From: Natrinema ejinorense
Lineage (GTDB): Archaea > Halobacteriota > Halobacteria > Halobacteriales > Natrialbaceae
DNA length: 64,000 bases
Direction of reading: 5' to 3'
Assembly: GCF_002494345.1 (NCBI RefSeq)
Contig: NZ_NXNI01000001.1
Location: 3,162,001-3,226,000 of the forward strand
The notes under the pieces were generated by a model. It saw only the letters and a program-made list of their open reading frames with translations. It did not search any database and was not told where the DNA came from. This document shows positions 36,101 through 57,767 of this stretch, one piece after another; within the stretch, counting starts at the first letter, position 1; every line of letters starts with the position of its first letter. The position numbers and the translations under genes were made by a program.

Positions 36101-36402
36101 AGCCGCCAGCGGACGAGAACGCCGTCATCGACGGCGACGGCGACCAGTCCCCGATCAAGTGCTTCCATCTGGCGAGTCGACCCGTTACCGGGTGCCGCCC
36201 CGACCTGTGGACCTGCCGCAGCGACGGCGGCGCTCGATGCCACCCCGCCGAGGAACACCCGCCGGTGCATGCTTCGTCCCCGCGATGGGGTTCCGATCGC
36301 CTCGTCGCGTTCGGGCGCGGACGGCGACTCTGCTCCGCTCTCGAACGCGTTCGATCGGATCGGTTCCCCCTGCGTACGACGGTCGTCTCTGTCCTCGATC
36401 AT
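33157..36402 (-). CDS. PL11 rhamnogalacturonan lyase with ricin-type lectin, concanavalin-like and dockerin-like modules
   Basis: The 1081-residue protein starts with a long Tat leader (RRVFLGGVASS near residue 47). The catalytic region begins MEALDRGLVAVAVDDG (about residue 79) and continues to about 640, as in PL11 lyases that cut the rhamnogalacturonan I backbone; several Asp-rich turns (FDGDGIAEFVV) fit the calcium-binding beta-propeller of this family. Next are a ricin-B/CBM13-like lectin (about 665-805, three QRW repeats), a concanavalin-like domain (about 825-985) and a dockerin-like end (last 62 residues, loops DDVDGDGETTHED and FDFDENGRIGFAD). The ATG at 36402 has a GGAG upstream; ATG at 36270 is an alternative. 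Confidence 0.85.
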   Translation of the reverse strand: MIEDRDDRRTQGEPIRSNAFESGAESPSAPERDEAIGTPSRGRSMHRRVFLGGVASSAAVAAAGPQVGAAPGNGSTRQMEALDRGLVAVAVDDGVLVRWRLFGTDPDDVAFNLYRDGTRANDSPITDGTNYVDPDGTTESTYAIRPVVDGTEREESKSVGVWEDNYLDIPLDRPGDNYHPNDASVGDLTGDGSYDIVVKWSPDNAKDNSQSGRTDPHIFDAYTLEGEPLWRIDLGINVRAGAHYAPFLVYDFDGDGIAEFVVRTADGTVDAAGNVIGDPDADWRNDDGYVLDGPEYLTVFDGTTGEELVTTDFRPARGDPCQWGDCYGNRVDRFLAGVAYLDGERPSIVVGRGYYEKTMVTTYDYRDGDLTERWTFDSDEPGNGDYAGQGNHQLSIADLDGDGRDEIVYGAMALDHDGTGLHTTGWHHGDALHCGDFLPDRDGLEIFQPHESGPYGATMRDGETGEPLWTVDAAGDVGRGVAANIDPNHRGVEAWASNGVGLRAADGERIGDAPWSINHLAWWTGDLQRELVDDWDGPTLHKWDPDSRSTTELEAFPGTRSNNGTKGNPCLTADILGDWREEVLWRRDDDEALRLFVTPYETDHRLYTLMHDSQYRTAVAWQNVGYNQPPHPSFYIGSSMDEPPTPEIDPVGPDESVDDPTDIIGLPDAANVPADTYRLVNANSGHVLEVAGGDESDGATVQQGTDEDLTHQRWDLRYVGEGAYEIVAAGSGKALEVAGASTDNGANVQQWTVNGNDNQRWYLDPLEDGAYRLVASHSDLVLGVAGGSVADGANAVQWEWNESDDQRWRLEPVAPRTGGAGPYTVEGAGADIWGSADECHYYSTSATGDFDLSVRVDDVENTDEYAKAGLMIRGSMDAGAKNAMIRRTPSATSVQWRPTVGGETVSLTSGAAGESEVAGGTTDHAWQRLVRSGNAVRAYTSADGERWQLLAEISLSFSSSVRVGLAVTSHASGTRCVATFDDLVGIEPSRSDDVGAVDVPGTASGADGKRPPVIDGERPTDPDGDGLYDDVDGDGETTHEDVNAFFENLETDGVQDNPDAFDFDENGRIGFADVLELLRQI

Positions 36403-36774: not shown

Positions 36775-38328
36775 TCAGATCCGTCGAAGTAGATCGAGGA
36801 TGTCCGAGGAGCCAAAGCGGCCGTTGCCATCGAAGTCGAAGGCGTCGGGGTTGTTCTGAACGCCGTCGGACTCCCGGTGTTCGAAGAGGGTGTTGACGTC
36901 CTCGTGGGTCGTCTTGCCATCCCCGGTGACGTCCTCGTACAGGCCGTCGTCGTCCGCGTCCCGGGCCTCGTACTCGCCGACTGCGATCGTCTCGCCGTTG
37001 CCCTCGCCCGCGGGAATGCCGTCGGCTTTGTGATCGGCGAGGAGGGCTTTGATGTAGTTACCCATCGAATCCTCGTGGGGAACGACCTCCCACTCGCAGG
37101 GCGGATCGGTACACTCGCCGTCGAACGCCGGCCTGACCGAGATCTCGCTCGCCCAGCCGGCGTCGAAGTTCCAGGCCTGCCAGTGGATCGCGTCGCTCGA
37201 TTCCAGCCACTCGGCCATGGGGTCGGCGTACGACGAGATGATGTCGGTGCCGAGATGGCTCGAACTCCAGCCCCACTCGGTGACGAACAGGGGGTACTCC
37301 TCGTAGATCTTCTTCGTGCCGTCGCCGTTCGGCCCGGGCCCGTCCCACGCCTGTTGCTTGCTGGCCTCGTGTTTCGGGTAGATGTGATATGTGTACGCGA
37401 GGTTCTCGCCCTCGAACGGCTCGACGAGCGCCCCTTCGGGGCTCTGGGTCCAGCTCGGCGACCCGATGAGGACCAGATTTCGCGGCGCGTGATCACGGAT
37501 GATGTCGACCCAGGGCTGGGCCATGTCCCTCCACCAGTACCAGGGTTCTGCGGCCCACTCTTCCTCCGTCGGATCACCCCACATGCCGGGTTCGGTCGGC
37601 TCGTTGTACACCTCATAGAGCACGTGGGAGTCCTCGGCGTAGCGGGGTGCAACCGTCTCCCAGAAGAGCCGGACTTCCTCGTCGAGCCCCTGATTCGGAT
37701 CGCCCGTGTCGGGGTCCGCCCACTCGAGTTCGCCGCCGCCCCAATGGCGGTGGAAGTCGACGATACAGTACACGCCGTTCCGGCGACACGATTCGACGAC
37801 GGGATCGAGGTGTGCCGCGAGATACGTCTCGAGTTGATCCCGAGTCATCGTCGGCGGTTCGTAGTAGCCGACACCGTCCTCGCGGTCGACGTACCCGTCG
37901 GGGTTCACGTCGTCGTAGTGATGAGCCGACCACGGGGACGGCAGGCCAGCGATGTCCCACGGCTGGCAGGGGATACGGATGATACGGGAGTACCACCCCT
38001 TATCCTCGTTCGTCAGGTAGTCGACGGCCTGGGCCGCCGACTTGCCGCGGCCGCTGACGTCCTCGTTCATCCGCCGCGGGTCGGCGATGTTGACGCCCCG
38101 GAGGGTGACGGTGTTACCCTGCGGGTCTTTCACGAGGTTGCCGTCCACCTCCAGCCACGGCGTCGGAATGCCCTCGTTGGCTGCCTGTGCGCCGACGGTC
38201 CCGGTGATAGTGCCCGCGCCGAGGGACAGTGCGCCGGTCCCGGCGGCAGCCTTGATGACGGTTCGCCGTGAGAGGGTGTCGATCGTACTCGATTCGTCCG
38301 CGTTGAAAGATTGATCGGGTCCTTGCAT
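36775..38328 (-). CDS. GH5 glycoside hydrolase with C-terminal dockerin-like module
   Basis: A 517-residue Tat-exported enzyme (SRRTVIKAAAGTGALSLGAG). The GH5 barrel spans about 55-430: RGVNIADP, the acid/base Glu in YEVYNEPTEP (about 241) and the nucleophile Glu in FVTEWGWSSS (about 349). Family members are mostly beta-1,4-glucanases or mannanases; substrate is not fixed by these motifs. The last 62 residues are the dockerin-like module with loops EDVTGDGKTTHED and FDFDGNGRFGSSD. The GRFGSSDIL ending is shared only with the next gene at 38450. The start at 38328 is preceded by an AT-rich promoter. Confidence 0.88.
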   Translation of the reverse strand: MQGPDQSFNADESSTIDTLSRRTVIKAAAGTGALSLGAGTITGTVGAQAANEGIPTPWLEVDGNLVKDPQGNTVTLRGVNIADPRRMNEDVSGRGKSAAQAVDYLTNEDKGWYSRIIRIPCQPWDIAGLPSPWSAHHYDDVNPDGYVDREDGVGYYEPPTMTRDQLETYLAAHLDPVVESCRRNGVYCIVDFHRHWGGGELEWADPDTGDPNQGLDEEVRLFWETVAPRYAEDSHVLYEVYNEPTEPGMWGDPTEEEWAAEPWYWWRDMAQPWVDIIRDHAPRNLVLIGSPSWTQSPEGALVEPFEGENLAYTYHIYPKHEASKQQAWDGPGPNGDGTKKIYEEYPLFVTEWGWSSSHLGTDIISSYADPMAEWLESSDAIHWQAWNFDAGWASEISVRPAFDGECTDPPCEWEVVPHEDSMGNYIKALLADHKADGIPAGEGNGETIAVGEYEARDADDDGLYEDVTGDGKTTHEDVNTLFEHRESDGVQNNPDAFDFDGNGRFGSSDILDLLRRI

Positions 38329-38449: not shown

Positions 38450-39931
38450 TTAGATCCGCCCGAGCAATTCGAGGATATCCGAGGAGCCAAAGCGGCCGTT
38501 GCCGTCGAAATCGAATTTCTCGGGGTTGTTCTGAACGCCGTCGGACCCGCGATTCTCGAAGAGGGCGGTGACGTCCTCGTGGGTCGTCTCCCCGTCGCCG
38601 GTGACGTCCTCGTACAGGCCGTCGTCGTCCGCGTCCCGGGCCTCGTACTCGCCGACTGCGATCACGTCGGGGTCGGATTCGTCGCCGCTCTTCCCGTCGA
38701 CAACCGCCGCATAGTCCTCGATGAGGTGGCCGGATTCGCTCGCGTAGAGTTGGAAGCCGTCGTGGTCCTCGGTGTCCTCGAGAACGACCTGCCACGGAAG
38801 AACGGCGTTACAGTCGTGCTCGTCGGCGACGTCGTACCACGCCGCGAGCGTCTCGTTTTTCGTCTCGAGGCCGTGCTGGGTGTCGTCGACGTTGAACTCG
38901 CCGAGGTAGGCGGGTTTGCCGATCTCCTCGTGGGCGTCGACGACGCGGTTCCGAATGTAATCCGCCCCTTCCTCGAGCGGGAAGTCCCAGTGGTCGGGAT
39001 ACAGGTGGAACGAACAGGCGTCGATCGTGTCGATCGAGTGGTGTTCGATGTAGTCCTGACCGCCCCAATCGTCGTTCGGGTAGTCGTCCTCCCAAGTCCC
39101 GTAGTAGTGACCCTCCGATCCCGTCGAGACGAGGTGATTCCCGTCGAGTTCTTTGATATATGATGACATGTCTGCGAACCAGTCGCCGAGGATCTCGCGG
39201 TGTTCGGGCGGCTCGAGGCTGTCCATGTCCGCGGGCACGTCGTCCTGCTCGAGACGCGGTTCATTGGCCAGTTCCCACAGCGCGATGGTCGGATCCTCGC
39301 GCCACTCGATCCCGCTGATCGAGTTCTCTCGCGTGAGGATGGTCTCGACGTGGTCGCGGTACATCCCGCGCGTCTCGTCCATCGTGTAGAACTCGTAGCG
39401 GGACTCGGCGCCCGCCCACTCGGCGTACTGGAGCATCCCTCCTTCGTGGTCCCAGTTGTCCACGAGCGTCGCGATGAGCCTGATCCCGCGCTCCCTGGCG
39501 GCCTCGATCAGGTAATCGAGGTTCTCGAGGGCGTCCTCGTTATACGCTCCGGGTTCGGGCTGGAGTGCGAGGGGACCGTCTTTGGCCTCGCCGTGAGCCC
39601 AGAACCGAACGAGGTCGATTCCCAGGTTCTCGTAGAGATCGAAGACGTCGTCGATGCGCTCTTTGGTCCCCTCGTACTCGTGGGTGATCCAGAAGTTGTT
39701 CGCTCCGTTGAAGTAGACCGGGTCGCCGTCGACGACGAACTCGGCACCGTCCGTCTCGACGTATGCGAGGTCGTCGGGGTCGGTCGTCGGTTCCGTCGCG
39801 GCCGCCGCCGTACTGGCGGCGAAAGGGGCGATCACCGCGCCCGCACCGATCGCTTTCACGAAGCGGCGCCGCGTCGGTCCGTTCTGTCGATCGATTCCGT
39901 CCGTGTCCGTCGCACGGTCGTTCGAAGTCAT
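38450..39931 (-). CDS. GH5 beta-mannanase-like enzyme with dockerin-like module
   Basis: A 493-residue Tat substrate (PTRRRFVKAIGAG). The barrel begins FVVDGDPVYFNGANNFWITH and continues VRFWAHGEAKDG, AARERGIRLIATLVDNW, the acid/base WELANEPRL (about residue 223) and nucleophile YLGEFNVDD (about 344). This set resembles GH5_7 endo-beta-1,4-mannanases, unlike the other five GH5 paralogues here. The C-terminal dockerin-like module has EDVTGDGETTHED and FDFDGNGRFGSSD. It would attack mannan or galactomannan outside the cell. Confidence 0.88.
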   Translation of the reverse strand: MTSNDRATDTDGIDRQNGPTRRRFVKAIGAGAVIAPFAASTAAAATEPTTDPDDLAYVETDGAEFVVDGDPVYFNGANNFWITHEYEGTKERIDDVFDLYENLGIDLVRFWAHGEAKDGPLALQPEPGAYNEDALENLDYLIEAARERGIRLIATLVDNWDHEGGMLQYAEWAGAESRYEFYTMDETRGMYRDHVETILTRENSISGIEWREDPTIALWELANEPRLEQDDVPADMDSLEPPEHREILGDWFADMSSYIKELDGNHLVSTGSEGHYYGTWEDDYPNDDWGGQDYIEHHSIDTIDACSFHLYPDHWDFPLEEGADYIRNRVVDAHEEIGKPAYLGEFNVDDTQHGLETKNETLAAWYDVADEHDCNAVLPWQVVLEDTEDHDGFQLYASESGHLIEDYAAVVDGKSGDESDPDVIAVGEYEARDADDDGLYEDVTGDGETTHEDVTALFENRGSDGVQNNPEKFDFDGNGRFGSSDILELLGRI

Positions 39932-40025: not shown

Positions 40026-41522
40026 TCAGGTCCGCCGGAGCAGTTCGAGGACGTCCGAAAACCCGATTCGGCCGTTCCCGTCGAAGTCGAACGCCTCGGG
40101 GTTTTCCTGGACGCCGTCCGACTCGAGGTTCTCGAAGAAGGCGTTGACGTCCTCGTGGGTCGTCGCCCCGTCGCCGTTGACGTCCTCGTAGCGTCCGTCG
40201 TCGTTCGTATCCTGCGCCTCGTAGTCGCCGACCGCGATCGCGTCGCTTCCGTCGACGATCACGTCGTCTTTCGTTTCCTCGAGCCACTCGCGGACGAACC
40301 GGCCCATCTGTTCGGGGTCGTCTTTCAGCTCCCACGGCTGGCCGGCGCCGTCACCGGGCGAGTCGAAGAACGTGGGTGCCCACGTATCGTCGAAACACCA
40401 GGCGATCCAGCCCATGTTATCGTAGGACTCCAGCCACTCGCGGACGGGTTCGCCCCACCCGCTCGTCGTGCCGAACTCGACGTGTTCCCGGAACTCCTCG
40501 TCGGGATCCCAGCCGAATTCGGTGACGATGACCGGAACGTCCTCGGCGGGCGCACCGTACTCGGGATCGAACGGGCCGACCTCGTACGTGTCGCCTTCCT
40601 CTCCCCGCTCGAGCGTGTCATGCGGGAGGCCGTTGTCCGGGTATATGTGGCCGGAATAGATCAGGTTCTCCCCGTCGAAGGGGTACTCGGCGGCGAATTT
40701 GGTTCGGGAGGTCCAGTCGGGCGAGCCGATGACGATCGGCGTCTCGGGTGCCTCGTCCCGGATCGAGTCGACCCACGACTGGGCGGTGTCACGCCAGAGC
40801 ATCCACTCGTCTTCCCTCGTCTGGACCGACGGACCGTGTTCCCCGTAGGTCGACCACGTGACGGGGAGCGTCGGTTCGTTGAACAGTTCGAAGAGGACGT
40901 TCTCATCGTCGGCGAACTCGGGGGCGACCGCGCCCCAGAACTCCGTCAGTAGGTCGTCGGTACCGACATGGGGATCGAAGCCGAGGCCGTCGAGACTGTC
41001 CGACCAACCGTCCTCGACCATTCCTTCCCCGTGACTCAGGGCCTCCACGTACGGCCGAATGATGTGAAAGTCGATCATCGCGTAGACGCCCCGGTCGGCG
41101 AGCAGATCGACGGCCGGACGCAGGAGGTCGTCGACGACGTACTGCATCCCGCGCTCGTGGACCGCGGCTTCTCCAACCGGCAGCCGAACCGTGTTCGGGT
41201 GCCACTGCTCCCCGTCGGTCGCGTGTTCGAGGATCTCGCGCTGGCTTCTGGGGTGTACCGACTCGAGGTAATCCAGCGACGCCGGCGAGACTCCGCGGGG
41301 TTTCACCCGTTGTCCGTCCTCGGTCACGATCCACTTCCCGTCGGTTCCCAGACGCGGCGTCGGCGTATCGACGGCCGCTGCCGAACCCGCCAGCCCGCCG
41401 AGTGCGAGGCCGATCGTCCCGACGCCCGCCGCTTTCACGAACGCCCGTCGCGTCGGTCGGCGTGACCGGCGGTCCGCTCGTTCGGGTAGCCGCTTCTCGC
41501 CCGCGCGATTATCGTAATCCAT
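40026..41522 (-). CDS. GH5 glycoside hydrolase with dockerin-like module
   Basis: A 498-residue protein from the ATG at 41522; the frame extends to 41603 but the extra residues precede a complete Tat leader (RPTRRAFVKAAGVGTIGLAL), so they are unlikely. GH5 acid/base is in FELFNEPTLP (about 212), nucleophile in IVTEFGWDPD (about 336). The dockerin-like C-terminus has EDVNGDGATTHED and FDFDGNGRIGFSD. It diverges more from the paralogues at 36775, 41688, 43600 and 48169 than they do from each other. Substrate is unknown. Confidence 0.86.
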   Translation of the reverse strand: MDYDNRAGEKRLPERADRRSRRPTRRAFVKAAGVGTIGLALGGLAGSAAAVDTPTPRLGTDGKWIVTEDGQRVKPRGVSPASLDYLESVHPRSQREILEHATDGEQWHPNTVRLPVGEAAVHERGMQYVVDDLLRPAVDLLADRGVYAMIDFHIIRPYVEALSHGEGMVEDGWSDSLDGLGFDPHVGTDDLLTEFWGAVAPEFADDENVLFELFNEPTLPVTWSTYGEHGPSVQTREDEWMLWRDTAQSWVDSIRDEAPETPIVIGSPDWTSRTKFAAEYPFDGENLIYSGHIYPDNGLPHDTLERGEEGDTYEVGPFDPEYGAPAEDVPVIVTEFGWDPDEEFREHVEFGTTSGWGEPVREWLESYDNMGWIAWCFDDTWAPTFFDSPGDGAGQPWELKDDPEQMGRFVREWLEETKDDVIVDGSDAIAVGDYEAQDTNDDGRYEDVNGDGATTHEDVNAFFENLESDGVQENPEAFDFDGNGRIGFSDVLELLRRT

Positions 41523-41687
41523 AGTATACCAACAACCACGTCTTATTTTCAAATAAATTTTTCTAAAATAAACTCCCCGGGACGGTCGCTCCGTGGCGAC
41601 CACTGCGCCGAAACGTGTCCTCGACCGCGGCCGGATCGGCGGATTGGGGCGTCGAGTAGCGACCGGTTTCGTTCGGCCCGGCTACCG

Positions 41688-43226
41688 TTATATGCGCCGA
41701 AGCAGTTCGAGGACGTCCCCGAAGCCGACGTCGCCGGTTCCGTCGAAGTCGAACGCCTCGGGGTTTTCCTGGACGCCGTCCGACTCGAGGTTCTCGAAGA
41801 AGGCGGTGACGTCCTCGTGGGTCGTCTCCCCGTCGCCGTCGACGTCCTCGTAGAGCCCGTCTCCGTTCGCGTCCCGGGCCTCGTACTCTCCGACTGTGAT
41901 CGCGTCCGAATCGCCGCTTGCCTCGGGGAGGTCGTCGGTACGTCGATCGGTCAGATACGTTTGCCACCACTCGCCCTGATAGTCCTCCCCGCCGAGGAGC
42001 GTCCACTCCTGTGTGTTGTCGTCGTAGTCGAACATGGTCGGCTCCCAGAACGGATCGAAACACCATATCTGCGGATGGACGGTATCGTACTCGTCGAAGA
42101 ACGCCTCGAACGCCGCGCCGTGTTCGGACGTCGTTCCCGAGAGGGGACTCCCGGCATCAGCCTGATATCCGAACTCCGTGAGGAACACCGGCACCTCCTC
42201 GGACGGGTCGCCGAAATAGTCCCCGAGCGGACGAAGGCCGTCGTGACCGGCGTACACGTGACCAGCGTACGCGAGGTTTTCGCCGTCGAACTCGTGGCGT
42301 GGTGCCCAGTAGGTGTACTGGCTCCACCGTGGCGAGCCGATGATAACGACGTTGCGCTCGGCGTGGTCGCGGATGGTATCGACCCACGGCTGGGCGGTCT
42401 CGCGCCACTGGAGCCAAGCTTGTTCGGCGTCGGAGCCGTGAACGTCGTACTCCTCGCCTGGCTCCTGGCCGGCGTAGGGACCGACCGGCTCGTTGTACAC
42501 CTCGTAGAGAACGTGCGAGTCATCGGCGAACTCGGGAGCGACGGTGTTCCAGAACAGCCGAACCTCCTCGTCGAGGTCGGGATCGGTGTACTCGAGACTC
42601 GTGTCGGCGTGACGGTGGTAGTCGACGATGCAGTAGACGCCGACGTCCCCACAGTAGTCGACGACCGGTCGGAGGTGGTGTTCGATGTACGCCTCGAGTT
42701 GCTCCTGGGTGACCGTCCCCGGATCGACTTCGTTCCGGATCTCACCGCTGACGCTGCCGTCGTCCGGATCGACGGTAACGATATCGCCGGTCTGGACCGG
42801 AATGCGGATGATCCGCGCGTACCAGTTCCTGTCGGGATCGGTCGCGTGGTCGATCGTCTCCGAGAGCGGTCGACGCCACGACCGCGCCGTACGGGCGGGA
42901 TCGATCACGTTGACGCCGCGGAGCACGACCTCGTTCCCGGTCGGGTCGCGGAGTACGTTCCCGTCGCGCTCGAGCCACGGCGTCTCGATCCCGCGGCCGT
43001 CTCCGGCGTTCTCGGCACGGGCGGGATCGGCAAGCGCGCCGGCCGTTATTCCGATCGCACCGAGGGCAGTCGTCGCGAGAAACCCCCGCCGGGAGCGGCG
43101 GGTCAGGCTCGCGTCGTATCCGCCCCGGGCGTCGGCAAAGCTGGCGTTTGGCGGCGATCGATTCCGAGACATCGTCATCCGTTCGTCGGGCCGTTCTCGT
43201 CGCGTGTCGCGTTCGTTCGTAGTCAT
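41688..43226 (-). CDS. GH5 glycoside hydrolase with dockerin-like module
   Basis: A 512-residue Tat-exported enzyme (TRRSRRGFLATTALGAIG). The barrel contains RGVNVIDPART, IVDYHRH, acid/base YEVYNEPVGP (about 243) and nucleophile FLTEFGYQAD (about 350). The closest relative in the window is the gene at 48169: both share the segment GSPRWSQYTYWAP. The dockerin-like module carries EDVDGDGETTHED and FDFDGTGDVGFGD; the second loop has Thr where the others have Asn. It is followed downstream by the GH5 gene at 40026. Confidence 0.87.
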   Translation of the reverse strand: MTTNERDTRRERPDERMTMSRNRSPPNASFADARGGYDASLTRRSRRGFLATTALGAIGITAGALADPARAENAGDGRGIETPWLERDGNVLRDPTGNEVVLRGVNVIDPARTARSWRRPLSETIDHATDPDRNWYARIIRIPVQTGDIVTVDPDDGSVSGEIRNEVDPGTVTQEQLEAYIEHHLRPVVDYCGDVGVYCIVDYHRHADTSLEYTDPDLDEEVRLFWNTVAPEFADDSHVLYEVYNEPVGPYAGQEPGEEYDVHGSDAEQAWLQWRETAQPWVDTIRDHAERNVVIIGSPRWSQYTYWAPRHEFDGENLAYAGHVYAGHDGLRPLGDYFGDPSEEVPVFLTEFGYQADAGSPLSGTTSEHGAAFEAFFDEYDTVHPQIWCFDPFWEPTMFDYDDNTQEWTLLGGEDYQGEWWQTYLTDRRTDDLPEASGDSDAITVGEYEARDANGDGLYEDVDGDGETTHEDVTAFFENLESDGVQENPEAFDFDGTGDVGFGDVLELLRRI

Positions 43227-43319: not shown

Positions 43320-43480
43320 ACCGCTAGACGTTCGCGGACATCCCCGAAGCCGATCTCTCCGTTGTCAAAGTCGAAACATCGCCTCGGACGCCGTCTCCCT
43401 CGAGGCGCTCGAAGGAAGCGGTGACGTCCTCGTGGGTCGTTCGACTGTCACCGTTGACATCAGTGTACAGTCCGTTGCCG
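43320..43480 (-). pseudogene. Orphan frameshifted dockerin-module relic
   Basis: Between two intact GH5 genes the minus strand encodes GLYTDVNGDSRTTHEDVTA, then FERLEGDGV, which matches the dockerin-like module, and in a shifted frame FDFDNGEIGFGDVRERL, the second loop. The shift lies near 43380. No enzyme domain is left upstream; the remaining 373-bp gap (43227-43599) has no other coding signal. It looks like the 3' end of a lost dockerin-bearing gene or a stray module from recombination. Confidence 0.75.
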
Positions 43481-43599
43481 GGCCGCATTCCGGGGCTCGT
43501 GGCCGGCGGGCCCGAATCCTCGCGTCTGGATTTATCGGTGGTCCCGCGCCGGTCAGGACGTGCCCCTCGACGATCGTACTCGAGGGACCGACCGCTCGG

Positions 43600-45663
43600 T
43601 CAGATCCTGTTGAGGAGTTCGAGGACATCGGCGAAACCGATCTCGCCGTTCCCGTCGAAGTCGAAGGCGTCGGAGTTTTCCTGGACGCCGTCCGACTCGA
43701 GGTTCTCGAAGAAGGCGTTGACGTCCTCGTGGGTCGTCTCACCGTCGCCGTCGACGTCCTCGTAGAGCCCGTCGTCGTTCGTGTCCCGGGCCTCGTGGTC
43801 TCCAACCGAGATCGTGTCGGAGCCGTCGCCGCCGTCGTTTGCCCCGCCACCGATGGTCCGCGTCTCGAAGGGCACCTGATCGTCTTTGTGTGCCTCGAGT
43901 TGTTCCTTCAGGTACTCGCCGCTGTTTTCGCCGCCGATCAGGTTCCACTCGCAGGGGAGTTCCTCACAGCCGACCGGAATGTCCTCGAAAGACGTGTCGT
44001 AGAAGTTGTCGTTGACGAGGTCGAGTTCGCCCTCTTCCGGTGCGTTCGGATTGTCGAACATCTTCGGCAACCAGCGGACGTCGGCACACCAACCGACCCA
44101 GCTGATCCGGTCGTCTTCCTCGACCTGATTCAGGAAGGGAACGCCGTACTCGGGGAGGGTCCCCTGTCCGGTGGTCGTCCCGCGCAGCCAGTGGGAGACG
44201 TCGGTGTCGTTGATCCAGCCGAACTCGGTGACGGCGATGGGGTGGTGCTCCATCGCGTTCTGGAGACCCGCCGCCTCGTAGGCTTCCCAACCGTAGCAAT
44301 CCTGCAGATTGTCGGGATGGTCGCTCACCGGCAGGTAGGGACTCTCGAGGTCTTCTCCGGTCTCGGCCTCGACCGCCTCGGGACTCTTGTAGTGCGTATC
44401 GTTGAACCAGTTGTTCATCTGGCTGACGTCGTGGCCCGCGTAGTTGTGCCAGGTGACGGCGATGTTGTCGTAGCCCGCGTCGTTGAAGTTCCGCCAGTGG
44501 AGCGCCTGCACCGACTGGCACCAGCCGGGGACGCCGACCAGCAGGACGCGATCGGACTGGTACTCCCTGATCTTCTCGATGATCGGGCCCATGAACTCGT
44601 CGAGGTACGTGTCCCAGAGCGGCTTCTGTTTGTACGCCGAACAGCCCTCGACGGGACCCCAGATCCCCGGTGCAGTCGGCTCGTTGTACGGCTCGAAGAT
44701 CACGTGATCCATCTCGCCGTACCGCTTGGCCACCACGTCCCAGAACATGAGGACCTCCTCGAGCAGTTCCTGGTTGACCGTCCAGTTCTCGTACGCGTAC
44801 GGCGTCCCGGGGAGGTCGCTCTCGCTGTGGATATCTCGAACGTAACCGTCTCCGGGCGTTTCCTTGATGTACTTCTGGTCGACGTACCCCCACGAGCCCG
44901 GCGCGTCCTTGCCGAACATCTCGTGGCTGTTGTACGCCCAATAGTTCGTGTACTCGCTGTTATAGGGCAGGTGGTTCTCGGCGTAGGAGGGTTGCTCGAT
45001 GCCCGGCGGCTGTTCGTGCCAGTGTCGGTGATAGTCGACGATGCAGTAGACCCCACGCTCCTTGCAGCGCTCGACGATCGGGTCGTAGTAGTTCTCGAGG
45101 TAGTCCTCAAGTTCCGCCCGAGTGAACGCCGCCGGCTGGGCCGGCCGCTGTTTCCGCCGGTCGTCGTCGACCGCCTGCGGTGACTCGAGTTCGCCGTACT
45201 CGTACTCGGGCCCGGTGTGCCCCATCGGATGCTCGCCGATGTCCTGTGGCTGTGCGGGCACGCGAATCACCCGCGGATGCCAGCCGGCCTCGTTGTTCGT
45301 GACCATATCGAGGAGCTGTTCGGGCGTCTTTCCGCGGAGGTGTCGCGTCCGGTGGAGCCGCTTCGGGTCGGGGATGCTGAGGCCCCGCATCTTGAACGTC
45401 TCGCCGTCCTCGTTGACGATCCGGTTGTCGTCGCTGACCGTCAGGTTCTGGAACTCGGCGATCCCGCCGGCCGCCGCACTGCCGGCGAAGCCAGCACCGA
45501 GTCCGAGGGCAGCGACGCCGGTCCCCGCAGTCGCTCGCATCATGTTTCGCCGAGTGAGGGAGATCGGCGACGTCGCGTCGTTCGCGTTCAACACGCTCTG
45601 TCGCGTGTTCTCGTTCGTCGCGGTCGATTCGTCCGTTCGCTGTGTGTTGTCGTTGGGTTGCAT
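43600..45663 (-). CDS. Long GH5 glycoside hydrolase with dockerin-like module
   Basis: The preferred ATG at 45663 (MQPNDNTQRTDES) gives 687 residues; another in-frame ATG is at 45708. The Tat leader is SLTRRNMMRATAGTG. The GH5 barrel is longer than its paralogues, with an insertion (about 170-280) rich in Tyr/Asn/Pro between the VDYHRHWHEQPPG strand and the acid/base FEPYNEPTAPG (about 328); the nucleophile is in AVTEFGWIND (about 481). The module at the end has EDVDGDGETTHED and FDFDGNGEIGFAD. The insert could shape a substrate cleft or hold calcium; substrate is unknown. Confidence 0.86.
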   Translation of the reverse strand: MQPNDNTQRTDESTATNENTRQSVLNANDATSPISLTRRNMMRATAGTGVAALGLGAGFAGSAAAGGIAEFQNLTVSDDNRIVNEDGETFKMRGLSIPDPKRLHRTRHLRGKTPEQLLDMVTNNEAGWHPRVIRVPAQPQDIGEHPMGHTGPEYEYGELESPQAVDDDRRKQRPAQPAAFTRAELEDYLENYYDPIVERCKERGVYCIVDYHRHWHEQPPGIEQPSYAENHLPYNSEYTNYWAYNSHEMFGKDAPGSWGYVDQKYIKETPGDGYVRDIHSESDLPGTPYAYENWTVNQELLEEVLMFWDVVAKRYGEMDHVIFEPYNEPTAPGIWGPVEGCSAYKQKPLWDTYLDEFMGPIIEKIREYQSDRVLLVGVPGWCQSVQALHWRNFNDAGYDNIAVTWHNYAGHDVSQMNNWFNDTHYKSPEAVEAETGEDLESPYLPVSDHPDNLQDCYGWEAYEAAGLQNAMEHHPIAVTEFGWINDTDVSHWLRGTTTGQGTLPEYGVPFLNQVEEDDRISWVGWCADVRWLPKMFDNPNAPEEGELDLVNDNFYDTSFEDIPVGCEELPCEWNLIGGENSGEYLKEQLEAHKDDQVPFETRTIGGGANDGGDGSDTISVGDHEARDTNDDGLYEDVDGDGETTHEDVNAFFENLESDGVQENSDAFDFDGNGEIGFADVLELLNRI

Positions 45664-45782
45664 TGGTCTCTCGTCGGGAATCGTGACTGCTGATCGGGAA
45701 TCGGTCACGGAGGGTCGTGGGCTCGAAGGGAGCCGTCAATGGAAACGGAACGGGGGACAGTCTGCCAGGGGATCGGCGGTGG

Positions 45783-47999
45783 TTAGGCGACAGTAATCGT
45801 GACTTCGTGGGTCGTCTCGCGTCCCCGCTGATCCGTCGCGGTGAGCGTTACCGTGTAGTTGCCACTGGAACCGTAGGAGTGACCGGCGTGCCAGCCGCTG
45901 GCGGATGTCCCGTCACCGAGATCCCACTCGAGTCCCTCGATCCAGATGTCGTCGGGCGTGTTGTCCGTAACCCTGAAGTCGATCCGCTCGCCCGTCTCGA
46001 CGTCCGTGGCACTCGGATCGATCTTCGCGAGGTGGTCCACTTCGAGGGGGATCTCACCGTCGACGGGCTCCCAGGCGTAGGATTCCTCGTATTTGGGCTC
46101 CTCGCCACGGGTCGTCCACTGTGCTTCCCAGTCTTCGCCGTTCCAGTGGACGCGGTCACCCTCTCGATAGAGGGTGTCGGAATCCCACTCGGGATACTCG
46201 CTGTCGCTTCCGTCCTCGTCGTCCGATTCCGCGGTCGTGGCAGAAACCGTCGCAGCGTCGGTCTCCGTGCCGTCTTCGCCAACCGCGGTGACACCGATCT
46301 CGTAAGTGGTACCCGGCTCGAGTTCGGTGACGGTGGTCGCCGTCGAGGACAGCGTGGTTTCCCGCTCGCCGTCGACCCGGACGACGTACTCGACGGCGTT
46401 GGGATCGGAGTTCCACTCGATCTCGACCGACGTCTCGTTCTCGGCGACGACCTCGAGCCCTTCGGGCGTGCTCGGAGGCACGTTGGCTTCCGCGGTCGTG
46501 GCAGAAACCGTCGCAGCGTCGGTCTCCGTGCCGTCTTCGCCAACCGCGGTGACACCGATCTCGTAGGTGGTTCCCGACTCGAGGTCGGTAACGGTAGCGC
46601 TGCTCGAGGCCGTAGTGGTTTCCCGCTCGCCGTCGACCCAAACGCCGTACTCGACGGCGTTCGGATCGGTACGCCACGAGAGCTCGATCGAGGTCTCGTT
46701 CTCGGCAACCACTTCGAGGTTTTCGGGGACGCTGGGAGGCTCGGCGTCGGGCTCGCCGTCACCGACGGTGAGCATCGCCTCCTCGACCGTCGGCTCGATG
46801 GCGTTGTTGTCGGGATCCTCGAGTCGGACGATCTCGGCGTCGAGGACGGTTTCACCGTCCGCTACGCCCTCGATTTCGATCTGACCGAACTCGATGTCGG
46901 TTGCGCCATCGTCGACGGTACTGATCGCGTAGAGTTTTCCGTACTCGTCTTCGGCTTCGACGGTACTGAGGGTGGCATCGGCGAACGTCTCGCTGAGCGC
47001 GGCATCGGTGACCCGAACGACGTCCGTATCGACGTTGAGGTCGACGTTGAATCCGAGCACGCCGTTCGGTGCCGCGCTCAGACCGAGATCGACGGTCGTC
47101 GTCTCGCCCGGATCTATCATCGCATCATCGAGGGTGACGGTGAGCGTGGGCGTCTCCGGCTCCGCACCGGCGACGGTCGTAGCCTGAACCGTCGCCGTGT
47201 CGGACGTGGTCTCGTCCTCGCCGATGGCGGCAACGCCGATCTCGTAGCTGGTGTCGGCCGCGAGGCCAGTGATCGTGGCGCTGGTCGACGTCGTCGTCGA
47301 TTCTCGCTCGCCGTCGACGGAGAGGGCATACTCCACGGCGTTTGACACTGGGCTCCACGCGACCTCGACCGACGTCTCGTTCTCTGCAACCACTTCGAGA
47401 TCCGTCGGCATTGCGGGTGCGGCGGAGTCGGTACCGACGGTCAGCGTCGGTGCGTCGTAGTTGGCGTCTCCAACTGTGCCACCCTCGGGCGGGGACAACG
47501 AGAAGTTCGTGAGTTCGGGGTCGGTGGTCCCGTCGCCTCGTGCCTCGAGGTGGATCGTTCCAACCTCGTACTCGCTCTCGGAGATCCCGGAACTCGTGGA
47601 GGCATTGAGGTTCACCGAGGCGACGGAGCCGCCCTCGTCCTCGATGTTGCTATTGATGACCCCTTCCAGGATTCCGTGACTCCCCAGTTCGATTTCAGTG
47701 ATCTGTGCGACGTCGGGATCGACCCCGATCCCGATGGTCGTGCCGCTCGATCCTTCGGGGAAATCTTGCAGCCGGACCGTCGCAGTCGTGCTCTCGCCGG
47801 CCTGGATCTGCTCGTCCGCGAGCTCGAGCACTACTGTCGGCAGGCGTTCCTGGGCCGCGACCGTCGAGGTCCCGAGTGCGAGCGCGCCAGCACTGACACC
47901 GGCGGCTCGCATGAAAGTGCGTCGTGATGTCGACGTGTCGGTCTGCCCATCGGTTTCGGTGAACTGTTCCTCGTCGTGTGTCTCGATATCGTCGTTCAT
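45783..47999 (-). CDS. Scaffoldin-like protein: two cohesin-like domains, three FN3, CBM5/12-like and PKD
   Basis: A 738-residue Tat-exported protein (STSRRTFMRAAGVSAG) with no catalytic domain. Order: cohesin-like 1 (about 55-189; begins TVVLELADEQIQAGESTT, ends NYDAPTLTVG), FN3-1 (195-277), cohesin-like 2 (284-413; begins LTVTLDDAMIDPGETTTVDL, ends EEAMLTVG), FN3-2 (420-503), FN3-3 (508-590), CBM5/12-like (601-646; YPEWDSDTLYREGDRVHWNG) and PKD (650-738; EWDLGDGTSASGW). Cohesins bind dockerins; CBM5/12 modules bind chitin or cellulose. It has no dockerin, S-layer or C-terminal anchor. The cohesin call rests on fold-like patterning and the dockerin-rich context. Confidence 0.8.
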   Translation of the reverse strand: MNDDIETHDEEQFTETDGQTDTSTSRRTFMRAAGVSAGALALGTSTVAAQERLPTVVLELADEQIQAGESTTATVRLQDFPEGSSGTTIGIGVDPDVAQITEIELGSHGILEGVINSNIEDEGGSVASVNLNASTSSGISESEYEVGTIHLEARGDGTTDPELTNFSLSPPEGGTVGDANYDAPTLTVGTDSAAPAMPTDLEVVAENETSVEVAWSPVSNAVEYALSVDGERESTTTSTSATITGLAADTSYEIGVAAIGEDETTSDTATVQATTVAGAEPETPTLTVTLDDAMIDPGETTTVDLGLSAAPNGVLGFNVDLNVDTDVVRVTDAALSETFADATLSTVEAEDEYGKLYAISTVDDGATDIEFGQIEIEGVADGETVLDAEIVRLEDPDNNAIEPTVEEAMLTVGDGEPDAEPPSVPENLEVVAENETSIELSWRTDPNAVEYGVWVDGERETTTASSSATVTDLESGTTYEIGVTAVGEDGTETDAATVSATTAEANVPPSTPEGLEVVAENETSVEIEWNSDPNAVEYVVRVDGERETTLSSTATTVTELEPGTTYEIGVTAVGEDGTETDAATVSATTAESDDEDGSDSEYPEWDSDTLYREGDRVHWNGEDWEAQWTTRGEEPKYEESYAWEPVDGEIPLEVDHLAKIDPSATDVETGERIDFRVTDNTPDDIWIEGLEWDLGDGTSASGWHAGHSYGSSGNYTVTLTATDQRGRETTHEVTITVA
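46228..46750 (-). repeat. 261-bp tandem repeat encoding FN3-2 and FN3-3
   Basis: The two copies are offset by 261 bp (87 codons); a stretch of about 78 bp starting at 46228 and 46489 is identical in both. The near-identity at silent sites points to recent duplication or gene conversion. Confidence 0.8.
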
Positions 48000-48168: not shown

Positions 48169-50031
48169 TTAAATTTCGTTGAGCAGTTTGAGGACGTCCG
48201 AGAAGCCGATCTCGCCGTTCCCGTCGAAGTCGAATTTCTCGGGATTGTTCTGAACGCCGTCCGACTCGAGGTGCTCGAAGAACGCATTGACGTCCTCGTG
48301 GCTGGTCTCCCCGTCGCCGGTGACGTCCTCGTAGCGGCCGTCGTCGTCCGTGTCCCGTGCCTCGTACTCACCGACTTCGACCGTCTCATCGCCGCTTCCG
48401 CCGATCGGGCCGGGTCCGATGTGCTTGTCGTTCTTTCCGTTGTCGGCGTCCGGATACGGTTCGTCGCCGGGCGCGAACGTATCGCGGTCGCCGGCCATTT
48501 GCTGGTTCATCTCGTGCCACCAGACGCCGGGCGTCTCGTCGTTGAGGTAGTTCATCCAGTCGTCGGCACCCTTCGCGCCGTCGTTCCGTCCCGGCGTTCC
48601 GTGCTCGAACATATTCGGCTCGTAGGTGTGGTCGAACGACCACGCCAGCGGGTGGACGTCGTAGTTCTCGATGAACTCCTCGTAGCCCTGAATGTACGGC
48701 TCACAATCGCCGTCGTGTTCGCCGCTACAGTCCATCCAGGGCGTATCGACGTGCATCCCGCCGCCCTCGATCCAGCCGAACTCGCTGAAGAAGACCGGCA
48801 CGTGTTCGGCCGCCTCGCCGAAGTACTTCGAGAGGGGCCGCAGGTCGTCCTGGGTGTAGACGTGAGCGGTGTAACACATGTTCTCGGCGTCGAACTCGTT
48901 GTACGGCGCCCAGTAGGTGTACTGGCTCCACCGGGGACTCCCGATCGTGACCAGGTGACCGGGCGCGTTCTCCTCGACCGTGTCGACCCACGGCTGGGCC
49001 CGATCGACCCACAGGTCGTACCAGGCCTTCATGTCATCGTTGGCGACGTCGTAATTGGACGCGTCTCCGTCGCCGGGAGCCTCCGCCGGATCGGAGAGGT
49101 CACCCGCCTGTCGCTGCGGGCCACCCCAGTCGCCGCCGTACGGGCCGGTCGGCTCGTTGTAGACGTCGAAGATGACGTGATCGTCGCCCGCGTACCGATC
49201 CGCGACGACCTCCCAGAAGGTGTGCAGTTCCTCGTCGAGCGCGTTGGAAACCTCCGGGGGTTCGAGGTAGATGTCGTCCTCGGTGAGGTCGTACGCCTCG
49301 AGGATGTTCTGCTCGTCGATCAGATCCCAGATCTCGTCGACCTGATCCTCGCCGTGCCAGAGCACCCCGCGCTCGCCACAGACTTCCGGGTGCCGCCAGT
49401 CCTCGCCGCCGTCGCTCGAGCACTGCCAGACGTTCGGATCGACGCCGTGGTTCTTGTGGTCCTCCTGATGGAAGACGGGATAGTGACGGTGGTAATCGAT
49501 CATCACGTAGGCACCGCGCTGGGCACCGAGTTCGACGAGTTCGTCGAGGAAGGTCCGACAGTACCACTTCACGTCCTCCCTGTCGAACTGCCCCGGCAGG
49601 GCCGGCCCCCAGTCGTCGCCGTGGGGCATTTCCCACGGTTCCGCGTTACGCGTCCCGGCCGCGAGGAACGCGGGCATTACCGGTACCCGGACGACGTTGG
49701 TGTACCAGCCCTCGCTCTCGTTGGTCGCCAGCCTGAACGTCTCGGGTGCCGTCTGCCCCCGCCACTTGCGGCTCTGTTCGGCCGGGTCGGCGATGTTGAC
49801 TCCACGAAGGATGACCTCGTTACCGCTCGGATCGACGATCTTGTTTCCGTCACGGGCTAGCGGCGGGAGGTCGACCTCCTGGGTGCTTGCAGCACCGCTG
49901 ACGCCGAGACCGCCGATCGCGATCACGCTCGTCCCCGTCGCCTTCAGTATCGTCCGGCGTGACGTCGAGATGGTCCTGCTGCCCCGCTTCGACTGTGCCT
50001 CTGAGTCGGCTTGGTTCGTATTCTCGGTCAT
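48169..50031 (-). CDS. GH5 glycoside hydrolase with dockerin-like module, upstream-most gene of the island
   Basis: A 620-residue Tat-exported enzyme (STSRRTILKATGTSVIAIGG). GH5 motifs are RGVNIADPAEQSRKW, acid/base FDVYNEPTGPYGG (about 290) and nucleophile FFSEFGWIEGG (about 418). The central region has inserted loops rich in Asp/Gly/Trp (about 180-280). The dockerin-like end has EDVTGDGETSHED and FDFDGNGEIGFSD, finishing LKLLNEI. It lies directly upstream of the scaffoldin-like gene, with an AT-rich 169-bp gap between. A long AT-rich upstream region probably holds its promoter. Confidence 0.87.
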   Translation of the reverse strand: MTENTNQADSEAQSKRGSRTISTSRRTILKATGTSVIAIGGLGVSGAASTQEVDLPPLARDGNKIVDPSGNEVILRGVNIADPAEQSRKWRGQTAPETFRLATNESEGWYTNVVRVPVMPAFLAAGTRNAEPWEMPHGDDWGPALPGQFDREDVKWYCRTFLDELVELGAQRGAYVMIDYHRHYPVFHQEDHKNHGVDPNVWQCSSDGGEDWRHPEVCGERGVLWHGEDQVDEIWDLIDEQNILEAYDLTEDDIYLEPPEVSNALDEELHTFWEVVADRYAGDDHVIFDVYNEPTGPYGGDWGGPQRQAGDLSDPAEAPGDGDASNYDVANDDMKAWYDLWVDRAQPWVDTVEENAPGHLVTIGSPRWSQYTYWAPYNEFDAENMCYTAHVYTQDDLRPLSKYFGEAAEHVPVFFSEFGWIEGGGMHVDTPWMDCSGEHDGDCEPYIQGYEEFIENYDVHPLAWSFDHTYEPNMFEHGTPGRNDGAKGADDWMNYLNDETPGVWWHEMNQQMAGDRDTFAPGDEPYPDADNGKNDKHIGPGPIGGSGDETVEVGEYEARDTDDDGRYEDVTGDGETSHEDVNAFFEHLESDGVQNNPEKFDFDGNGEIGFSDVLKLLNEI

Positions 50032-55875: not shown

Positions 55876-56859
55876 TTATTCGACCCGGAGGGTGCCCCGC
55901 ATCGTCGTCTGATGTGGGTCGCAAACGTATGCGACCATCTCGCTACTCGCCGTGAACTCGAGGAGCCGGTCGCCCTCCGGCTCCACGACGAGTTCCGTTT
56001 CGAGGCCATCGACCACCTCGTCGTCGTCCCCTCTGATCCCGACGTTGTGTGGCTGGCCGTTGCCCTCGACCATGCCGATCGCGTACTCGGCATCCGCCTC
56101 GAGGACGAGCGTCGGGTTTTCTCGACCCTCGATCTCGGACGGCGTAACCCCCTCCCAGTGGCTCGTCTGGCCGCTGAGCGTGATCTCCGTTCCGGGCTCG
56201 ATGTGATAGCCGTCGGCCGCCGACTCGCCTTCGTCGTCGGGTTCGTCCGTCGATCCCGTCTCCGCGGCGTCGTCGCTTCGAACGTCGATCTGCCCGCGCA
56301 TCTGGTGTCCGTGGGGATCACAGACGTACGTGCTCATCTCCTCGCTGGCCGTAATAGTCAGCGTCTGCTCCGACGGCTGCGTCTCGGTGCTCAACTCGGT
56401 CGAGAGTCCGTCGACTACCGCATCGTCGTCGTCACGGATCTCGATGTGATGTGGCTGGCCGTCGCCGTCGGCCCAGCCGATCGTGTACTCGGCACCCGCC
56501 TCGAGAACGAGCGTCGGGTTTTCCCGGCCCTCGATCGCGGCGGGTTCGAGGCCCTCCCAATGGGTGGTCTGGGCACTGAACAGGATCTCCGTTCCGGGTT
56601 CGATAGGAGAGCTGTCGTCGCCCGACTCGCCCTCGTCGTCGGGTTCAGCCGTCGATTCCCCATCGTCAGCCTCGTCGCTCTCGTCCCCGCTCGGTGGGGA
56701 CTCCTCGGCTTCGTCGTCGGGTCCGTCCTCGGGAGTCGTGGCTGGCTCGTCGGTCCCACCGCCGTCCTCGAGACACCCCGCGAGTCCCGCACTCGCCGTC
56801 GCGACGCTCGCGAGTTTCAGTACTGTTCGACGAGCGACGTCCTCGTCCGTCCCGGACAT
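55876..56859 (-). CDS. Tat lipoprotein with two tandem cupredoxin-like domains
   Basis: A 327-residue protein with a Tat-lipobox leader (ARRTVLKLASVATASAGLAG, then Cys). After an acidic linker, two homologous domains follow. Domain 1 (about 95-215) has a copper ligand set in QPHHIEIRDDD and VCDPHGHQMRG; domain 2 (about 225-327) in QPHNVGIRGD and VCDPHQTTMRG. The Cys-x2-His-x3-Met spacing with an upstream His is that of blue-copper proteins (halocyanin-like). Both share FSAQT(T/S)HWEG-type strands. An electron-transfer or copper-storage role at the outer membrane face is likely. Confidence 0.85.
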   Translation of the reverse strand: MSGTDEDVARRTVLKLASVATASAGLAGCLEDGGGTDEPATTPEDGPDDEAEESPPSGDESDEADDGESTAEPDDEGESGDDSSPIEPGTEILFSAQTTHWEGLEPAAIEGRENPTLVLEAGAEYTIGWADGDGQPHHIEIRDDDDAVVDGLSTELSTETQPSEQTLTITASEEMSTYVCDPHGHQMRGQIDVRSDDAAETGSTDEPDDEGESAADGYHIEPGTEITLSGQTSHWEGVTPSEIEGRENPTLVLEADAEYAIGMVEGNGQPHNVGIRGDDDEVVDGLETELVVEPEGDRLLEFTASSEMVAYVCDPHQTTMRGTLRVE

Positions 56860-57071: not shown

Positions 57072-57563
57072 TTATTCGACCTGAATGGTGCCCCGCATCT
57101 GCGTCTGGTGGGGACGGCAGACGTACTCGGCCATGTCGGAGCTCGCCGTGAAGGTCAGCGTCTGGTCCGACGGCTCTTCTTCGGAGACCTGTTCGGTCGA
57201 GAGTTCGCCGACGACGCTGTCGTCGCTGTCGACGATCTCGAAGTTGTGCGGCTGGCCGTTGCCCTGGTTCCAACCCATCGTGTACTCCTCACCTTCCGTG
57301 AGGATGATGGTCGGGTTCTCCGAGCCCTCGATCGCCGACGGGCTCACTCCCTCCCAGTGGCTGGTCTGTGCGCTAAACAGGATCTCCTCGTCGGGTTCGG
57401 CTTCGTACTCGCTTGCACCGCCGTTGCCGTTGCCATTGCCGTTACCGTTGCCGTTGCCATCACCGTTACCGCTCCCGCCACAGCCAGCGACGAGCGCCGT
57501 CGATGCCGCTGCGCCCGTGAGCTTCAGCGCTGTCCGCCGCGAAACCGCATTATCTCGTGCCAT
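57072..57563 (-). CDS. Tat lipoprotein with one cupredoxin-like domain
   Basis: A 163-residue relative of the preceding gene's domains. It has a Tat lipobox leader (VSRRTALKLTGAAASTALVA, then GC), a linker of GN repeats, and one cupredoxin with QPHNFEIVDSDD and VCRPHQTQMRGTIQVE, keeping His, Cys, His and Met. It shares FSAQTSHWEGVSPSAIEG with the larger protein, so the two genes are paralogues by tandem duplication. They lie 211 bp apart on the same strand. Confidence 0.85.
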   Translation of the reverse strand: MARDNAVSRRTALKLTGAAASTALVAGCGGSGNGDGNGNGNGNGNGNGGASEYEAEPDEEILFSAQTSHWEGVSPSAIEGSENPTIILTEGEEYTMGWNQGNGQPHNFEIVDSDDSVVGELSTEQVSEEEPSDQTLTFTASSDMAEYVCRPHQTQMRGTIQVE

Positions 57564-57767
57564 CACCGGAGGTTGGGCCTGAGCACATAAAAATTGATAC
57601 CTTCTACCAGTGCAATGTTATGTGAATACATGACACAATATATGCCTCATCGGTGCGAGTCCCCGTCGCTCCCGCATCCGGCGATTCATACGGTCTCCTG
57701 TCCGTCAGTACCGGTGGGACCGGGACCGCCCTGCGGTCCCACCGGGACATCGGGACAGCAAACCGTC

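Follow-up and report, generated by a model that had tools for sequence, protein, structure and literature searches.

The protein encoded on the minus strand at positions 45783-47999 of a 64,000-nucleotide stretch of Natrinema ejinorense DNA (the window) is very probably the primary scaffoldin of a small haloarchaeal cellulosome, in which we infer that it binds dockerins. We favor this reading because both of its cohesin-like regions are modelled with cohesin folds, dockerin-bearing enzymes are encoded alongside it, the cluster is conserved, multi-cohesin proteins and dockerins co-occur across genomes, and larger versions are found in cultivated cellulotrophs. The cellulosomes described so far come from anaerobic bacteria and certain anaerobic fungi. 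The sequence-only reading of this DNA had compared the protein with bacterial scaffoldins, which was the wrong frame since the host is a haloarchaeon of the genus Natrinema, and for the same reason the finding is more surprising than that reading stated.

Domain organization of the scaffoldin

The 738-aa protein has the domain order Coh1-FN3-Coh2-FN3-FN3-CBM5/12-PKD:

45783-47999, minus strand: scaffoldin gene, 738 aa, ATG start
47862-47930, minus strand: twin-arginine (Tat) signal, residues 24-46 (SRRTFMRAAG...), NCBIfam TIGR01409, 19.2 bits, above the cut-off of 16.7
47430-47840, minus strand: cohesin 1 (Coh1), residues 54-190, from the AlphaFold2 (AF2) model, Foldseek and VIA
47175-47420, minus strand: FN3 domain 1, Pfam PF00041, extent from the PDB search and orthologues
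46752-47156, minus strand: cohesin 2 (Coh2), residues 282-416, from AF2, Foldseek, VIA, PF00963 and the tree
46494-46736, minus strand: FN3 domain 2, Pfam and PDB search
46218-46478, minus strand: FN3 domain 3, Pfam
46071-46190, minus strand: CBM5/12-like module, PF02839, below cut-off
45789-46019, minus strand: PKD domain, PF18911, E 2.8e-14

The open reading frame and the module order had been proposed from the sequence alone, and both were borne out. Profile searches, which had been suggested as a check, found the three FN3 stretches (PF00041, E 4.8e-25) and the PKD domain, while the CBM5/12 and cohesin models stayed below their cut-offs. The CBM5/12 match was weak (PF02839, E 1.5e-4, 22.1 bits against a cut-off of 26.2); the aromatic residues of this module are invariant across 10 orthologues. 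As had been claimed, no dockerin, S-layer motif or PGF-CTERM tail was found in the protein, either in its sequence or in the Pfam and NCBIfam scans. At least two cohesin-fold domains in one non-catalytic protein is a feature of scaffoldins, and it is present here. Orthologues were identified in nine further genomes of the family, 54-75% identical across the whole protein. All nine keep the architecture, and therefore it is not due to chance.

Fold and divergence of the two cohesins

Each cohesin region was modelled alone by AF2 (residues 50-192 and 282-416), with shallow 8-row alignments of sequences from the window and its relatives as input. The Coh1 model had a pLDDT of 75, and the Coh2 model, with nine strands, a pLDDT of 90. 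The top Foldseek matches of both were cohesins, including the one from R. flavefaciens ScaC. Coh1 gave a Foldseek E value of 2.3e-8 to 5lxv and a VIA Z score of 15.2 (rmsd 2.6, 130 residues), and Coh2 gave a Foldseek E value of 7e-9 and a VIA Z score of 15.7 to 1g1k (rmsd 2.2, 129 residues). Nearly all top structural matches of the two domains were cohesins, and the archaeal cohesin 2xdh was among the close ones (Z 14.5 and 15.0). The best non-cohesin was a fibrillar-adhesin domain, with VIA Z scores of 11.7 and 12.6 compared with 15.2 and 15.7 for cohesins. In the predicted models, both regions take the cohesin fold, as had been suspected from their sequences. An adhesin or Ig-like identity, which had been named as the alternative, was rejected: cohesins ranked first in both Foldseek and VIA, and a fibrillar-adhesin CLIPPER domain and BcpA pilin were lower.

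The cohesins are much harder to recognize by sequence. The cohesin family PF00963 was absent from the Pfam scan of the full-length scaffoldin, and Coh2 scanned alone reached 19.7 bits (E 0.0011) against a cut-off of 24.1, which the orthologue in genome G066 exceeds (24.4 bits). PF00963 matched 14 of 48 related domains (best E 5.2e-6), and a profile built from these 48 domains had a scaffoldin cohesin, 5lxv, as its best PDB match (E 0.0033). A phmmer search of the whole protein against the PDB returned relatives of the FN3, PKD and CBM parts and no cohesins, so single-domain and profile searches were needed.

Coh1 and Coh2 are about 26% identical to each other, in keeping with the earlier remark that they are quite different in sequence. 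In a tree of the ten orthologues, all Coh1 domains formed one well-supported clade and the Coh2 domains fell into the other, less well-supported group. Thus, the two types represent an old, conserved split, and Coh1 may have its own specificity.

Dockerin-bearing enzymes on both sides of the scaffoldin gene

The strongest support was missed by the sequence-only reading. The scaffoldin gene is flanked on both sides by genes for six GH5 enzymes and one rhamnogalacturonan lyase, seven dockerin-bearing enzymes that are all encoded on the minus strand:

48169-50031, minus strand: GH5 enzyme, C-terminal dockerin at 48172-48369; directly upstream of the scaffoldin, likewise placed in eight relatives
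43600-45708, minus strand: GH5 enzyme, C-terminal dockerin at 43603-43800 (Pfam, genome dockerin search)
41688-43226, minus strand: GH5 enzyme, C-terminal dockerin at 41691-41888 (Pfam, genome dockerin search)
40026-41603, minus strand: GH5 enzyme, C-terminal dockerin at 40029-40226 (Pfam, genome dockerin search)
38450-39931, minus strand: GH5 enzyme, C-terminal dockerin at 38453-38650 (Pfam, genome dockerin search)
36775-38328, minus strand: GH5 enzyme, C-terminal dockerin at 36778-36975 (Pfam, genome dockerin search)
33157-36402, minus strand: rhamnogalacturonan lyase (RGL11) with a ricin-type lectin domain and a C-terminal dockerin at 33160-33357 (Pfam, genome dockerin search)

PF00404 (Dockerin_1) was the top Pfam family at the C-terminus of all seven enzymes, and all seven dockerins were above the cut-off in a genome-wide dockerin search. 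They are near-identical (mean column identity 84%), and each carries, as expected of a type I dockerin, a C-terminal pair of Ca-binding loops, with motifs of the D-x-[DNT]-x-[DNT]-G-x5-D kind spaced by 32 residues. The 4.48 Mb genome has one further full-length dockerin, a weaker one in a phosphatase-like locus; seven of the eight thus lie within 17 kb, with a chance probability of about 1e-16. When the dockerin profile was searched against the PDB, EF-hand proteins matched best (E 6.6e-10) and true dockerins (CelS) came later (E 0.0012). A twin-arginine motif is present near the N-terminus of all eight proteins, the scaffoldin and the seven enzymes. Chitin, which the earlier reading had considered as a target besides cellulose, was rejected as the main target: the dockerin enzymes of the cluster are GH5 enzymes and a pectin lyase, and no chitinase domain was seen in them by Pfam.

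We also observed a decayed dockerin-coding remnant (DVNGDSRTTHEDVTASFERLEGDGV..., followed by a frame change) between two of the GH5 genes, at 43360-43490 of the window on the minus strand. It resembles the end of a lost dockerin gene.

In the proposed mechanism, the scaffoldin and the enzymes would be exported folded through the Tat route, and Ca2+ in the salty medium would fold both loops of each dockerin. Each scaffoldin would then recruit two of the seven enzymes, one on Coh1 and one on Coh2, with the combinations interchangeable. The FN3 domains would space the parts of the complex, and the CBM5/12 module, perhaps with the PKD domain, would hold it on cellulose or the plant cell wall, where the endo-acting enzymes would become concentrated on the fibre. 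In the source strain the complex might be free or fibre-held. For these dockerins, a membrane-tailed single cohesin of the Coh2 type would be a further possible partner in the relatives. Since there are two old cohesin types and one dockerin type, one of the cohesins could have another partner. With the conserved division into Coh1 and Coh2, a single scaffoldin would be able to carry partners of two kinds.

Conservation of the cluster and larger versions in other haloarchaea

The dockerin-enzyme cluster around the scaffoldin is conserved in eight of the nine relatives, always with a GH5-dockerin gene directly upstream. In G056, the scaffoldin orthologue is an orphan (G056:C1:2938751-2940742; L047, L048): no dockerin enzymes were found in the 40 kb around it, and the two dockerins of this genome are encoded elsewhere, on proteins of 881 and 196 aa. 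In G066, G068 and G069 (Natrinema salsiterrestre), a single-cohesin protein of 237-240 aa is encoded directly downstream of the scaffoldin. These proteins have a twin-arginine motif, one Coh2-type cohesin that falls inside the Coh2 group of the tree, and a PGFGP...R tail, which the PGF-CTERM model matches below its cut-off.

Larger versions were found in other genomes. G007 (Natronoglomus) encodes a GH5 protein of 1,768 aa with 8 tandem cohesins, and G008 (Halovivax sp. KZCA124) one of 2,096 aa with 10; Pfam misses all of these tandem cohesins. In both genomes, the cohesin-rich GH5 gene is followed by a tailed single cohesin of 258-261 aa and a long run of dockerin enzymes. The sizes of the open reading frames in G007 (637, 610, 1755, 258, 759, 741, 577, 815, 835 and 490) match those of Natronoglomus mannanivorans MCU4972_2716-2735 as given in PMC10963439. 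At least five cohesins were found in G085, at a contig edge. Halococcoides cellulosivorans HArcel1 (G126) has 64 dockerins together with multi-cohesin proteins, one of which, of 1,665 aa, has the C-terminal end PGFGPLVALIALVAATLVAVRRD. In another haloarchaeal family, G321 encodes a five-cohesin protein with a C-terminal dockerin (L168:8104-11199) next to a single cohesin with a C-terminal membrane segment, and this locus looks like a complex, anchored cellulosome.

At G030 C1:470-492 kb and G032 C1:77-110 kb (L170-L173), two genomes from one genus of the family encode many-cohesin PF00963-type proteins (2,089 and 1,260 aa), as well as proteins with a cohesin and a dockerin together. They represent a different, cellulosome-like type. 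We had considered these two genomes as exceptions, with dockerins but without the scaffoldin type, and this was rejected as both have PF00963-type multi-cohesin proteins.

Co-occurrence and co-variation of cohesins and dockerins

Co-occurrence was analysed in 125 genomes of the family, with presence judged by model scores. At least four dockerins were found in 14 of the 15 genomes with a multi-cohesin protein versus none of the 110 without one (Fisher p about 1e-17, in counts that ignore shared ancestry). When only the present scaffoldin type was counted, the numbers were 12 of 13 versus 2 of 112 (p 7e-14, shared ancestry again ignored). The co-occurrence may partly reflect transfer of whole clusters.

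Among nine clusters, mean distances were 0.44-0.50 for the cohesins and 0.36 for the dockerins against 0.16 for the catalytic domain of the GH5 enzyme encoded upstream, so that this domain has diverged most slowly of the three. Controlled for this catalytic domain, cohesins and dockerins co-vary with a partial r of 0.46-0.52 (permutation p 0.012-0.016, n = 9); the CBM-PKD control gave a partial r of 0.28 (p 0.09). As a sequence-based sign of a link between cohesins and dockerins, this co-variation is suggestive only.

Other cohesin proteins in the genome

A search for separate anchoring proteins elsewhere in the genome, proposed in the earlier reading, led to two other cohesin proteins, each with a C-terminal membrane segment, and none beside the scaffoldin. 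One locus encodes a PhoX-type-phosphatase-like protein with its own C-terminal cohesin and dockerin (L070:7086-9704; G000:C1:982-985 kb), and after this phosphatase-like gene comes one for a cohesin protein that ends in a membrane tail (L070, about 9700-10423). The two form a second, separate haloarchaeal cohesin-dockerin pair that is widespread in the family and class. At another locus (L001:1222-2220, minus strand; G000:C1:1110 kb), there is a protein with a single PF00963 cohesin above the Pfam cut-off, an acidic linker and a C-terminal membrane helix. It is possible that this protein is a general surface receptor for dockerins.

Elsewhere in the window, a secreted protein at 55876-56859 (minus strand) has two halves that resemble repeated cupredoxin-type domains ending in VCDPH motifs, and a single-domain gene at 57072-57566 is similar to it.

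Possible partners of the dockerins

The enzymes might dock mainly on a surface-anchored cohesin, with the scaffoldin as a secondary, released carrier. Single-cohesin proteins with PGF-CTERM-like tails adjoin the scaffoldin in G066, G068, G069, G007 and G008, and the cellulase activity of cultivated haloarchaea is cell-bound (PMC4569967). However, the scaffoldin has no tailed single-cohesin gene next to it in the window, and the only other loci of this cohesin type in the genome are the phosphatase pair, which makes mainly anchored docking unlikely. The earlier claim that the complex would be free in the medium fared unevenly: the scaffoldin has no anchor of its own, but the complex may be either free or cell-bound in this strain, given the tailed single cohesins of the relatives and the two membrane-tailed proteins of this genome.

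Less likely still, the two domains with cohesin folds serve a structural or adhesive role, making the protein a cellulose-binding adhesin, and the dockerins of the enzymes bind another cohesin of the genome, such as those encoded at C1:984 kb, in the phosphatase locus, and at C1:1110 kb. Those two membrane-tailed proteins, the presence of BcpA pilin and a fibrillar-adhesin domain lower in the fold lists, and the occurrence of two cohesin types with a single dockerin type would fit an adhesin. Against it, the gene lies inside a dockerin-enzyme cluster in nine of the ten orthologous loci, the best cohesins score about 3 Z units above the adhesin domain, and many genomes have the phosphatase locus but no dockerin-enzyme cluster. 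It is highly improbable that haloarchaeal dockerin modules are substrate binders, as stated in PMC10963439 and repeated in PMC13260240 and as their resemblance to EF-hands might suggest. The passages concerned give no binding measurement, and known dockerins bind cohesins. In addition, genomes differ in module number in step with whether they have multi-cohesin proteins, and the modules show co-variation with the cohesins.

Comparison with known systems

As a probable primary scaffoldin, the protein resembles those of the simple cellulosomes of Clostridium and Ruminiclostridium (CipA/CipC/CbpA-type; criteria in PMC11557425). Both are non-catalytic multi-cohesin proteins that lack an anchor and a dockerin and share their gene cluster with glycoside hydrolases bearing dockerins, and both systems have the cohesin fold and the two-Ca-loop dockerin. 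The bacterial CBM has a putative counterpart here. The haloarchaeal system would work like a simple bacterial cellulosome. Unlike the bacterial proteins, the scaffoldin here is haloarchaeal and Tat exported, and it has a CBM5/12-like module instead of CBM3 and FN3 and PKD domains instead of X2. There are just two cohesins, mutually divergent, and both fall short of the Pfam cut-off and share less than 20% identity with solved cohesins.

Archaeal cohesins also occur in Archaeoglobus fulgidus and ANME archaea, and ANME proteins have up to five cohesins and a dockerin (PMC9012536). While the ANME multi-cohesin proteins were reported without polysaccharide enzymes and the cohesins of these archaea are not tied to such enzymes, the dockerins here are on cellulase-family and pectin-lyase enzymes of the same cluster. 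The dockerin-bearing glycosidase clusters of Natronoglomus mannanivorans and its relatives, as far as described in the available part of PMC10963439, are loci of the same kind. There, 'GH5/CBM6 endoglucanase' is the annotation of the 8-cohesin scaffoldin (1,755 aa), and 'S-layer glycoprotein' that of the tailed single cohesin (258 aa); that part of the paper does not mention cohesins, scaffoldins or cellulosomes. In a search confined to the open-access literature, we found no report of haloarchaeal cohesins or scaffoldins. No archaeal cellulosome components were found in a 2010 survey (PMC2838879), and the producers reported in a genome-wide cellulosome survey of 2024 are bacteria (PMC11557425).

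Haloarchaea probably have a spectrum of true cellulosomes that work at molar salt, in aerobes, and would be the first known in archaea. Besides two-cohesin scaffoldins, the spectrum would include catalytic ones with 8-10 cohesins, others that end in a dockerin, and archaeosortase-type anchored cohesins; these cellulosomes would have been overlooked because their cohesins score under Pfam's cut-off. Cultivated haloarchaeal cellulotrophs adhered to cellulose and showed activity on it only in association with their cells (PMC4569967). A haloarchaeal cellulosome, if true, would explain this attachment and the retention of insoluble-cellulose activity on the cells. It would also provide biotechnology with cohesin-dockerin pairs working at 3-4 M salt and allow direct tests of how cellulosomes have spread between the domains of life. 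In the class as a whole, the cohesin type of the scaffoldin was present in 149 of 391 sampled genomes, with the best 10 candidates per genome scored, and many of these genomes have only the phosphatase pair.
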